From: Chloroflexia bacterium SDU3-3
GTDB taxonomy: Bacteria; Chloroflexota; Chloroflexia; Chloroflexales; Roseiflexaceae
NCBI GenBank assembly: GCA_009268125.1
Contig: WBOU01000016.1
Coordinates: forward strand, 62,001-126,000
Length of the DNA stretch: 64,000 nucleotides
Direction: 5' to 3'
The notes under the pieces are model-generated. The model was not told where the DNA came from. It was given only the letters and a program-made list of their open reading frames with translations, and ran no database searches. The translations under genes were made by a program, and so were the position numbers. Positions 10,465 through 19,796 of the stretch are shown one piece after another (position 1 is the stretch's first letter; each line of letters opens with the position of its first letter).

Positions 10465-13269
10465 ATGCGACGTGTCTTCTCGCTCCTATGCCTCTGCAGC
10501 CTGCTGCTTTCTGCTTGCGGGCCAGGCAACAGCGAAGATGATGGACCCATCCCCGGGCTTGACACATCCCCTGTACCAACGGCCCAGGGCAGCGGCGACG
10601 GCACTTCCAGCGGCGCAACTATCACCTTTGCCGCATGGGAATACGAGATGAGCACCTACGAGACGCTGGCGACAAAATTCCACGAGGAAAACCCCGGCAT
10701 CAACGTCGTGATCGTATCGATGGACGAGCTGTCGAGCAGCGGCGAGAGCGACGCCCCGCAGGACGAGGTCTCGCGCATGCGGCGGGTGGTGAGCGGTGCC
10801 GACACCGCAGCCCAGAGCAGCATCTCGCCCGAGGTGGCCGCATCGGGCCTGCTGCTAGACATGAAGCCGCTGATGGAGAGCGACGCGGGCTTCAAGCGCG
10901 ATGACTTCTACCCCGGCGTGCTCGATCGCGGCACCTACGACAAGGGCATGCTGGTGCTGCCGCGCTACGTGTGGCTGCAGATCTTGGCCTATAACAAGGA
11001 TCTGTTCAAGAATGCCGGCGTGCCCGAGCCGAAATCCGACTGGACCTGGAATGACCTGTTCGGGGCCGCCGAGCAGATCGCCGCGTTCGACAGCAAGGCC
11101 TACGGCTTCTACGACCCGAGCAGCGGCTTCTACAGCCTGCTGTCGGAGATCGAGAGCCGCAAGATCAACGTCTTGGATGTGTCTGCCGCCGACGCCGACC
11201 TCACCCAGCCTGAGCTGGTGAGCGCTATCGAGAAGATCCAGGGCCTGATCACCAACCGCACGATCTACAGCGGCGTCTCCAAGGGCTCTAAGAACCAGAG
11301 CGACCCGCAGCAGGTGGTGCGCGACGGCCATGTGGGCATCTTCCCACCCGAGATGACCACATCCTATATGGAGGGCGCCACCGACATCGGCAAACCGCAG
11401 ACCGCCGCCGATCTACCCTTCACCATGGGCAAGATCAACTACCCTAAATCCGACGCGCTGCTCTCGACCATCAACAACAGCAACGTCGAGGGCTTTGTGA
11501 TCAGCTCGGGGACGCAGCACCCCAACGAGGCCTGGAAATGGGTCGAGTTCCTCTCGCGCCAGACCGACGATAGCCCCAACGGCAGGATGATGATGGTGGG
11601 CACGGGCCGTATCCCCGCACGCCAGAGCGTGGCCGAGGCCAGCAAGTTCTGGGACAACGTCGACGACGAGGCCAAGACTGCCTACCAGACCACGCTGGCC
11701 CAGCAGGTGGTGCGCATGACCAAGACGCCCGACTACACCACGCTGGGGCCGCTGAGCCAGGCGATCTACGATGTGACGACCGGCGGAAAGAAGCCCGCCG
11801 ACGCGCTCAAGAGCGCCCAGGAGCAGCTGACCGCCCAGGTGGACGAGCTGGCCAAGGCTACACCCACGCCCACGCCGCAGGCCGGGCCGGTGGTGGTGTC
11901 CACGCCGGTGCCGCAGACCGCCCCCGATGGCGCGGCGACGCTGGTCTTCAACCCGCTGGGCTACGACACCTCGTCGTTCCGCAAGATGGCCCGCACCTTC
12001 AACGACCAGAAGAACGGCTACTTTGTGCAGATCAAGGCCACCGACGTCACCACATCGCCGGTGACGCTGGCCGACGCCGCCAAGAGCGCCGACTGCTTCG
12101 CATGGTGGAACGCACCCCAGTCGGCCAACGACTTCGCCGCGCTGCTCGACCTGCAGCCCTTCTTCTCGGCGGATGCCAGCTTCAAGCAGGATGACTTCCC
12201 GCCCGCCGTGCTGAGCCAGCTCACATCCAACGGCGGCATCTACGGCCTGCCCTACACCTTCAACACCCGCGTGCTGGGCTACAACAAGACCATATTCGAC
12301 AGCGCAGGCATCGAGACGCCGACCTACACCTGGAAGCCCGACGACTTCCTGGCCGCCGCCAAGGCGCTGACCACCGGCAGCGGCGACAAGAAGCAGTACG
12401 GCTACATCCCGCTGGGCGGCGCGATCAGCGACCTCAGCTTCTTCATCACACAGTTTGGCGGCCAGCTCTCCACCGGCAGCGGCAAGGATGTGCAGCCCAA
12501 CTTCAGCGACCCGACCGTGGTCAAGGCCATCCAGTGGTACATCGATCTGGCCAAAGTCCACGGCGTGACGCCCAAGTTCACCCTGCCCTACAGTCCCAGC
12601 GACAACTCCAGCGACAACTCGTACGACATGATCCAGAAGGGCCTGGGGGCCATGTGGCTGGACAGCGGCTACGGCTCGTTCCCGGTAGGTGTCGATGGGG
12701 TGAACTCGGGGCTCAGCTGGCAGCCGGGGCTGGCACCGCTGCCGCTCGGCGGCGCAGGCATGCAGAGCGGCGACCTCTGGGTGCGCGGCTTCTATGTCTC
12801 GGCCAAGACTGAGCAGCAGCAGGGCTGCTGGGAGTGGCTGAAGTTTGTCACTTCCAATGTGAACAACCTCAATGGCGACCTGCCCGCCCGGATCTCGGTG
12901 GCCAGCTCGGCGGAGTTCACCAGCAGCGCCAACGAGACCCAGCTGCAGATGATCAAGATCTACCAGGAGGCGCTCAAGCAGCCCAGCAAGAACAACCCTG
13001 GCCTGAACGCCCTGTACAGCTCGTCGCAGTTTGGATTTGACACCTACTGGTTCTACAAGGCCATCGACGACGCGATCGAGAAGGATGCAAACTTGGCCGA
13101 GGAGCTGAAAAAGGCCGACGAGCTGACCAAGGCCAACATGAAGTGCGTGGCCGAGACCCAGAAGCCGGCCACCTGCGCCAAGCAGACCGACCCCGAGTAC
13201 GACGGCTACAACACCGAAGACCCCGACCCGAACCGCCCGATCGGCATCGAGCGAGGGTGGGGCGGCTAG
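10465..13269 (+). CDS. Lipoprotein with two fused family-1 solute-binding domains
   Basis: A 934-aa exported lipoprotein: signal MRRVFSLLCLCSLLLSACGP with the lipobox cysteine at about residue 18. It contains two copies of the sugar-type (family 1) extracellular solute-binding fold. The first (about 50-465) begins TFAAWEYEMSTYETLATKFH and includes ILAYNKDLFKNAGVPEPKSD with WTWNDLF. A Thr/Pro linker (TPTPTPQAGPVVVSTPVPQ) follows. The second (about 492-910) begins LVFNPLGYDTSSFRKMARTF and includes VLGYNKTIFDSAGIETPTYT. Normal family members have a single domain of about 430 aa. It is followed not by MalFG-like permeases but by HlyD, FtsX and ATPase genes, so it may sense or deliver substrate to that exporter-like system (inference). 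AAGGAAG precedes the start. Confidence 0.88.
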   Translation: MRRVFSLLCLCSLLLSACGPGNSEDDGPIPGLDTSPVPTAQGSGDGTSSGATITFAAWEYEMSTYETLATKFHEENPGINVVIVSMDELSSSGESDAPQDEVSRMRRVVSGADTAAQSSISPEVAASGLLLDMKPLMESDAGFKRDDFYPGVLDRGTYDKGMLVLPRYVWLQILAYNKDLFKNAGVPEPKSDWTWNDLFGAAEQIAAFDSKAYGFYDPSSGFYSLLSEIESRKINVLDVSAADADLTQPELVSAIEKIQGLITNRTIYSGVSKGSKNQSDPQQVVRDGHVGIFPPEMTTSYMEGATDIGKPQTAADLPFTMGKINYPKSDALLSTINNSNVEGFVISSGTQHPNEAWKWVEFLSRQTDDSPNGRMMMVGTGRIPARQSVAEASKFWDNVDDEAKTAYQTTLAQQVVRMTKTPDYTTLGPLSQAIYDVTTGGKKPADALKSAQEQLTAQVDELAKATPTPTPQAGPVVVSTPVPQTAPDGAATLVFNPLGYDTSSFRKMARTFNDQKNGYFVQIKATDVTTSPVTLADAAKSADCFAWWNAPQSANDFAALLDLQPFFSADASFKQDDFPPAVLSQLTSNGGIYGLPYTFNTRVLGYNKTIFDSAGIETPTYTWKPDDFLAAAKALTTGSGDKKQYGYIPLGGAISDLSFFITQFGGQLSTGSGKDVQPNFSDPTVVKAIQWYIDLAKVHGVTPKFTLPYSPSDNSSDNSYDMIQKGLGAMWLDSGYGSFPVGVDGVNSGLSWQPGLAPLPLGGAGMQSGDLWVRGFYVSAKTEQQQGCWEWLKFVTSNVNNLNGDLPARISVASSAEFTSSANETQLQMIKIYQEALKQPSKNNPGLNALYSSSQFGFDTYWFYKAIDDAIEKDANLAEELKKADELTKANMKCVAETQKPATCAKQTDPEYDGYNTEDPDPNRPIGIERGWGG

Positions 13270-13370
13270 CGGCAGGCACAAGCGGAGTGCGGCAGGCATG
13301 CTTCTAGCATGCCTACCGCACCAGAGACATCCTTCGCACGGGCCACAGTCGTAGCGCGATGGCACCGGCG

Positions 13371-13400
13371 TTGCCAGACTGAACATGGGTTTGCTACACT
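13371..13400 (+). promoter_or_regulatory. Promoter of the HlyD-like gene
   Basis: TTGCCA (13371-13376), an 18-bp spacer and TACACT (13395-13400) preceded by TGC. It is placed 97 bases before the ATG at 13497, so the transport genes can be transcribed independently of the binding-protein gene. Confidence 0.65.
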
Positions 13401-19092: not shown

Positions 19093-19097
19093 AAACT

Positions 19098-19796
19098 ATG
19101 ACAGCGAACGAATCGATCATCCAGATCAAGCAGGTCGAGCGCACCTTCCACGTCAATGGGCGCGATGTGCACGCCCTCCAGGGCATCAATATGGATATCC
19201 CGCGCGGCTCGTTCATCGTGCTGATGGGGCCATCGGGCAGCGGGAAGACCACGCTGCTCAACCTACTGGGCGGGCTCGACCAGCCGAGCGAGGGCAGCGT
19301 GCTGGTGGATGGCATGCGCCTCGACGAGGTAGGCGGCGAGTCGCTGGCCGCGCTGCGCCGCCGCATCGGCTTCATCTTCCAGAGCTTCGCGCTCATCCCC
19401 ACCTCCTCGGTGTACGAGAACGTCGAGCTGGGCCTGCGCATCTCGGGCAGCGTGCCGCGCGGCGAGTGGGGCACCCGCATCCGCCGCTGCGTGGCCGCCG
19501 TGGGCCTGCTGCCCTGGATCGACCACCGCCCCTACGAGCTGTCTGGCGGCCAGCAGCAGCGCGTGGCCATCGCCCGCGCCCTAGCCATCCGCCCGCAGAT
19601 CATCCTGGCCGACGAGCCGACCGGCGACCTGGACAGCAAGACCGGCGCGACCGTGCTGGGCCTGCTGCGCGAGCTGGTGGACAACGAGCAGGTCACCATC
19701 GTGATGGCCACGCACGACCCCGCCGCCACCGCCTACGCCACCGATGTGTACCAGCTGCGCGACGGCGCGGTGGCCGCGCACGAGGTGCGGGCGTAG
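19098..19796 (+). CDS. ABC ATPase (LolD/MacB type), second of the locus
   Basis: A 232-aa ATPase with Walker [11 protein letters not shown] loop [20 protein letters not shown], signature LSGGQQQR, Walker [17 protein letters not shown] and switch [12 protein letters not shown]. Length and motifs are those of LolD or the MacB ATPase. The frame is open 12 codons upstream, overlapping the previous gene, but the ATG at 19098, six bases after that stop, gives the conserved N-terminus. Two separate ATPases for one asymmetric permease suggest a heterodimeric ATPase, or that each ATPase serves a different half. Transcription ends at the strong terminator at 19820-19861. Confidence 0.93.

Follow-up and report, generated by a model that had tools for sequence, protein, structure and literature searches.

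Type VII ATP-binding cassette (ABC) systems in which the permease works with a partner have precedents in YbbAP-TesA of Escherichia coli and in BceABS (PMC12646458). The permease YbbP is the product of a duplication and carries a pair of linking helices together with two periplasmic domains of the Porter/Sabre kind (PMC12646458). Here, we describe a locus from Chloroflexia bacterium SDU3-3 in which a permease of the same arrangement is encoded beside a tandem solute-binding protein (SBP). The locus lies in a stretch of 64,000 nucleotides, termed the window (positions 62001-126000 of contig WBOU01000016.1; G000:C16:62001-126000), of a 6.76 Mb genome in 51 contigs; among named organisms, Roseiflexaceae bacterium ES-bin-105 and Kouleothrix, both Roseiflexaceae, are closest to it. 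Five genes, all open, occupy positions 10465-19796 on the plus strand in the order SBP, HlyD-like adaptor, FtsX-like permease, ABC ATPase 1 and ABC ATPase 2 (Table 1). The set is a variant of the type VII ABC systems and not a new kind of protein, and every part of it is known singly. With slightly more confidence than doubt, we read it as a Chloroflexales type VII (FtsX/MacB-fold, mechanotransmission) ABC system with a dedicated tandem SBP that captures or senses an extracellular ligand, probably glycan- or oligosaccharide-like.

YbbAP-TesA (PMC12646458) resembles the window set in several respects: the permease is one pseudosymmetric chain whose two periplasmic domains are MacB/LolC-like, the ATPases are of the LolD type, and there is a soluble partner on the extracytoplasmic side. 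However, the partner in E. coli is the hydrolase TesA and not a binding protein (none of the five window genes matches a hydrolase family), the published complex has no HlyD adaptor, and a single ATPase in two copies takes the place of the two different ATPases of the window. BceABS and other BceAB-type sensing and detoxification modules share the pseudo-dimeric type VII permease fold and also tie sensing to gene control, for which one relative has an extracytoplasmic function (ECF) sigma factor and a putative anti-sigma domain. BceB differs in that its extracellular domain is single and large and its partner is a histidine kinase, where the window has two periplasmic domains, HlyD and the tandem SBP. 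MacAB-TolC and the monoderm systems YknXYZ and SpMacAB likewise combine a HlyD/MacA adaptor, a MacB-fold permease and a LolD-type ATPase, whereas the window set has fused permease halves, two ATPases, an additional tandem SBP and no TolC. The importers GlnPQ and OpuA have two substrate-binding domains per system, but these are linked to the importer membrane domain, whereas those of the window are SBP_bac_1 domains on a free lipoprotein beside an FtsX core.

The SBP consists of a lipobox (Cys18), a first domain at residues ~50-464, a Pro/Thr linker at ~465-488 and a second domain at ~489-900. The SBP_bac_1 family typical of MalEFGK importers is found twice in the protein (143 bits, compared with a Pfam cutoff of 26 bits), and the AlphaFold2 (AF2) model contains two sugar-SBP folds (predicted local distance difference test (pLDDT) score 84.9, predicted template modelling (pTM) score 0.82). 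The second domain matches ligand-free oligosaccharide-binding proteins with structural Z scores of up to 25.6, and the sequence profile of the first domain likewise matches solved sugar SBPs. The two halves are homologous to each other (hhalign E value 1.7e-56, 25% identity), and the gene is therefore an internal duplication. Among 41 relatives, Cys18 is almost invariant, and cysteines 544, 788, 894 and 904 of the second domain are invariant. These results agree with the sequence-only reading, which had described a lipoprotein with two complete sugar-type binding domains preceding a MacAB/YknXYZ-like set.

The permease has the FtsX fold and extended periplasmic domains that characterize type VII ABC systems. 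Extra helices join its two halves, both of which contain a long MacB/LolE-like periplasmic domain, and a poly-Gly loop is present in the second half. Over its whole length, the AF2 model (pLDDT 80.0, pTM 0.74) is best matched by E. coli YbbP and BceB, the former also being a pseudosymmetric permease with two periplasmic domains. By parts, MacB matches residues 1-445 and LolE/LolC match residues 526-962, and the matches to YbbP, BceB, MacB, LolCE and FtsX have Z scores of 12-21. A sequence search against solved structures returned only poly-Gly matches to antibody linkers and was replaced by this fold search.

The adaptor open reading frame (ORF) spans 13401-15125, and the start that follows the ribosome site AAGGAAATAATC is the ATG at 13497. 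Its match to TIGR01730 (RND_mfp, 116 bits) is above the cutoff, as expected of a MacA/HlyD periplasmic adaptor, and it also matches Pfam HlyD_3 and HlyD_D23. The best NCBIfam matches of the two ATPases are MacB, LolD and FtsE, the types found in type VII systems, although none reaches its equivalog cutoff. The MacB equivalog PRK10535, for example, is matched by the ATPase alone (203 bits, compared with a cutoff of 966 bits). ATPase and permease are separate genes in the window and not one MacB chain. The Walker A, signature, Walker B and H-loop elements of ATPase 1, as read from the sequence, are all intact. Roseiflexus and Chloroflexi bacterium OHK40 encode the two ATPases as one fused protein, an argument for their forming a heterodimer beneath the pseudo-dimeric permease.

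The host genome, which is listed as 100% complete, has no match to Omp85 and no convincing TolC, the only candidate being one partial OEP match of 25.5 bits. Diderm control genomes did yield both families. The lack of Omp85 and the weakness of the OEP match make a MacAB-TolC conduit with an outer-membrane exit duct unlikely. For the window system, the fitting comparison is with those MacB homologues of Gram-positive bacteria that have an adaptor (PMC5985334).

The searches covered 82 genomes at the order level, a sample of 400 genomes at the phylum level and 84,980 species in a wider scan. Double SBPs occur in 31 of the 82 genomes of the order, and the combination of SBP, HlyD, FtsX and ATPase genes was seen in Roseiflexus, Kouleothrix-like, lake Roseiflexaceae, Chloroflexaceae and Herpetosiphonaceae genomes, a group of photosynthetic and filamentous Chloroflexales. 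An FtsX family of ~960 amino acids is spread phylum-wide (113/400 genomes), mostly with HlyD and two ATPases and without the SBP. A tree built from 74 FtsX proteins of the phylum groups the SBP-linked members, without exception, in one clade with a support of 0.977. A double SBP is present at all 17 readable members of this clade and at none of the 32 readable outsiders; 4 clade members and 21 outsiders were unreadable because of nearby contig ends or short flanks, and the sequences are related, so that these counts are not independent events. The linkage persists across divergence down to ~32% identity. According to tables read by eye, FtsX of this clade is present in ~27 of the 31 SBP-positive genomes and in no SBP-negative genome of the order, and three of the SBP-positive genomes without it are fragmented metagenome-assembled genomes (MAGs). 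Given the linkage in all 17 readable cases, the association is not accidental. The binding protein with a HlyD/FtsX set and without MalFG, first seen in this one sequence, is thus a conserved association.

One rival explanation is that the SBP serves another transporter and merely travels beside the HlyD-FtsX-ATPase genes. This is consistent with the gap of 227 nucleotides between SBP and hlyD in the window, which holds a promoter-like site, and with the loci that carry the SBP without partners. Specifically, of 66 distinct double SBPs, 25 show linkage to one or more partner genes, 17 are orphans (no partner genes, with at least 2 kb readable on either side) and 24 are too close to a contig end to be assigned; several orphans reside in the window's own genome. 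The sequence-only reading would have taken a binding protein found elsewhere without FtsX, or with MalFG, as a sign of accidental linkage. The first situation occurs in form, as the 17 orphan paralogues; the second was not encountered, because MalF/MalG permeases (BPD_transp_1) adjoin none of the 66 distinct loci, several of which are cut by contig ends. These permeases do adjoin the single-domain SBPs of loci L013-L016, so their detection works. We consider mere neighbourhood improbable, given the absence of MalFG beside any double SBP and a clade-wide linkage that spans at least three families. Intergenic gaps across the operons are mostly 3-125 nucleotides and some genes overlap, so one transcript is likely in those cases. 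The SBP gene is also found in another order, inside the ATPase 1/ATPase 2 pair (L194, L197 and L205, with gaps of 2 and 18 nucleotides at L205). The neighbours of orphan SBPs were considered as a clue to the ligand and dropped, as they are unrelated (aminotransferase, hybrid kinase, helicase) and none is conserved.

In the phylum sample, the double SBP is confined to the window's order, and in the species scan its close relatives are found in Chloroflexales only, except for one contig labelled Singulisphaera that is assigned to the same Roseiflexaceae genus. More distant matches comprise one 25%-identical protein from Anaerolineae and ordinary single SBPs. At L221:7319-15350, L062:3462-6336 and L085, double-SBP genes occur as tandem arrays and as broken copies, which suggests that they have been repeatedly duplicated and have then decayed.

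Several SBP paralogues accompany a single clade FtsX in the window genome (G000) and in G057, G029 and G030, as would fit a single core whose specificity is set by the SBPs. A second indication comes from Herpetosiphonaceae bacterium MGR_bin415 (L212:9207-12694, JACDGP010000016.1), where an ECF sigma factor gene (TIGR02937, 69.9 bits, cutoff 42.9) runs into the beginning of the double-SBP gene, with the HlyD and FtsX genes coming next. This SBP has no lipobox. It starts with an HxxxCxxC segment resembling zf-HC2, followed by a hydrophobic helix, and its N-terminus matches an NCBIfam antisigma model (E value 2e-5). With an anti-sigma-like zinc finger, a membrane helix and a position immediately after an ECF sigma gene, this SBP is probably a sensor; in this lineage, it is probably an anti-sigma factor that spans the membrane and reads a ligand on the outside. 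In this relative, the fusion favours sensing over loading for efflux.

These observations bear on a second explanation, in which FtsX and HlyD pull a membrane-embedded glycolipid, lipoprotein or exopolysaccharide intermediate out of the membrane and the double SBP, as a chaperone, receives it and carries it away, as LolA does for LolCDE. We regard such extraction as rather unlikely, although it ranks next after sensing or capture. The LolE/LolC-like and MacB-like folds of the permease halves and the presence of the adaptor are in keeping with it, and MacB homologues with adaptors exist in bacteria without an outer membrane (PMC5985334). However, several different SBPs for each FtsX are more in keeping with a specificity input than with a shared carrier, the sigma/anti-sigma fusion points towards sensing, and the SBP clamp is not known as a lipid carrier.

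The least probable of the explanations, and one we hold to be very unlikely, is that the FtsX core and tandem SBP form an unconventional importer of an oligosaccharide. Both SBP domains do have a sugar-type fold, and tandem binding domains occur in importers such as GlnPQ (PMC8025302). Against this stand the HlyD adaptor and the lack of MalFG beside any double SBP. Also, no type VII core is known to act as an importer.

In the sensing and capture mechanism that we prefer, the lipid-anchored tandem SBP would close on its extracellular ligand and dock onto the two periplasmic domains of the permease, much as TesA does on YbbP. The ligand state would then alter the ATP-driven mechanical cycle of ATPases 1 and 2. 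As nothing points to an outer membrane across which export could take place, this cycle would act on the outer side of the membrane, where the HlyD lipoprotein may form an extracytoplasmic conduit or scaffold. The output would be capture and removal or envelope remodelling, with the SBP as sensor and specificity part. The same core may also be fed by the additional orphan SBP paralogues. A fused anti-sigma domain probably lets the SBP of one Herpetosiphonaceae lineage signal straight inward. More tentatively, and with somewhat less than even weight, we propose that the ligand sensor gating an FtsX mechanotransmission machine is here a tandem sugar-type SBP in place of a permease loop or kinase, and is itself a transmembrane anti-sigma factor in some lineages.

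Several observations weigh against the sensing and capture mechanism. The zf-HC2 match of the Herpetosiphonaceae protein (21.5 bits) is just below the Pfam cutoff of 22.2, and the sigma/anti-sigma arrangement is known from one low-coverage MAG. Many SBP paralogues are orphans. Finally, in lake Roseiflexaceae of genus g9 (L068, L070-L074), SBP, HlyD and FtsX genes have no adjoining ATPase gene. In these organisms, the ATPases must come from elsewhere, and the set may share those of a second HlyD-FtsX-ATPase operon found in these genomes (L144).

Table 1. Features of the locus, in window coordinates
Feature	Position	Strand	Basis
TGCTACACT, possible extended -10 of the SBP gene	10378..10386	+	exact match
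Tandem SBP lipoprotein, 934 aa	10465..13269	+	PF01547 twice; AF2 model; Foldseek/VIA matches; conserved columns in 41 relatives
TGCTACACT, possible extended -10 of hlyD; promoter-like TTGCCA-18-TACACT, 9/12	13392..13400	+	exact match
MacA/HlyD-like adaptor lipoprotein, 542 aa, ...LAAC lipobox	13497..15125	+	TIGR01730; HlyD_3, HlyD_D23
Pseudo-dimeric FtsX/MacB-fold permease, 967 aa	15132..18035	+	PF02687 twice; AF2 model; structural matches
ABC ATPase 1, 351 aa, LolD/MacB type, C-terminal extension	18037..19092	+	PF00005; MacB/LolD-like
MazE/AbrB-like C-terminal segment of ATPase 1 (EEMVVLDGAGRLQIPGEQRALAGIGRRAKVELTEQGILIRAVE)	18811..18936	+	aligned with counterpart in 31 homologues
ABC ATPase 2, 232 aa, FtsE/LolD type	19098..19796	+	PF00005; FtsE-like, 203 bits
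Perfect hairpin with A/T tails, 3' of the last ATPase gene	19820..19861	.	read from sequence; not reported by an automated scan

The leader regions of SBP and hlyD had been noted to share a -10 element, and both TGCTACACT sites do exist. Co-regulation through them is unsupported, as the motif is neither enriched nor present in the relatives' leaders that were inspected, where the only near match is TGCTACAAT, upstream of the Kouleothrix hlyD. The genome contains 40 copies, fewer than the 64 of the reversed control, and the motif was dropped as a regulon signal. The chance that two 200-nucleotide leaders have some 9-mer in common is ~0.15 (200 x 200 / 4^9), so the pair is not beyond chance. The shared 9-mer is real and probably of chance origin.

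The hairpin is probably a bidirectional terminator common to the operon and to a converging gene (19878-28484, minus strand), which encodes a secreted many-repeat protein of 2868 amino acids (DUF11-like by eye). The divergent upstream gene was rejected as a conserved extra part, since this neighbour, named by eye and without a family search, resembles a TolB/tricorn-like protease in Roseiflexus, phosphoenolpyruvate carboxylase in genus g9 and YflT in the window.

Elsewhere, FtsX paralogues are found in other company. Those at L152:5966-12486 and L172:4178-8981 lack HlyD and ATPases and adjoin MalF/MalG-type import permeases, along with a single SBP at L152. Solo paralogues at L147:8933-15465 and L161:2547-11836 are near OppD/OppF-like ATPase genes, and a deacetylase-like ORF, read by eye, adjoins FtsX at L140 and L147.

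The MazE/AbrB-like tail of ATPase 1 is conserved, and is present also in homologues without an SBP. Homologues score 33.1 and 24.7 bits with PF04014 (cutoff 24.7), and the window copy is below the cutoff. A similar C-terminal domain is found on ABC ATPases of the same family at L125, L137 and L162. A literature search for an ABC ATPase with a C-terminal MazE/AbrB-like domain found no description, and no account of an SBP combined with FtsX/HlyD in Chloroflexota turned up in the open-licence literature (subscription papers being outside its scope).

The envelope biology of this phylum is little explored, and the ATPase pair with its AbrB-like tail is a further unusual part of the system. In transporter annotation, SBPs serve as a hallmark of import, and the known roles of type VII systems are export, lipid extraction and mechanical actuation. 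The conservation of an operon joining an SBP with a type VII core indicates that an SBP by itself is no proof of import, and the operon offers a defined five-gene set for testing ligand-gated mechanotransmission. If the proposal is true, an SBP-gated FtsX machine would link the worlds of importer SBPs and type VII systems, which are otherwise kept apart.

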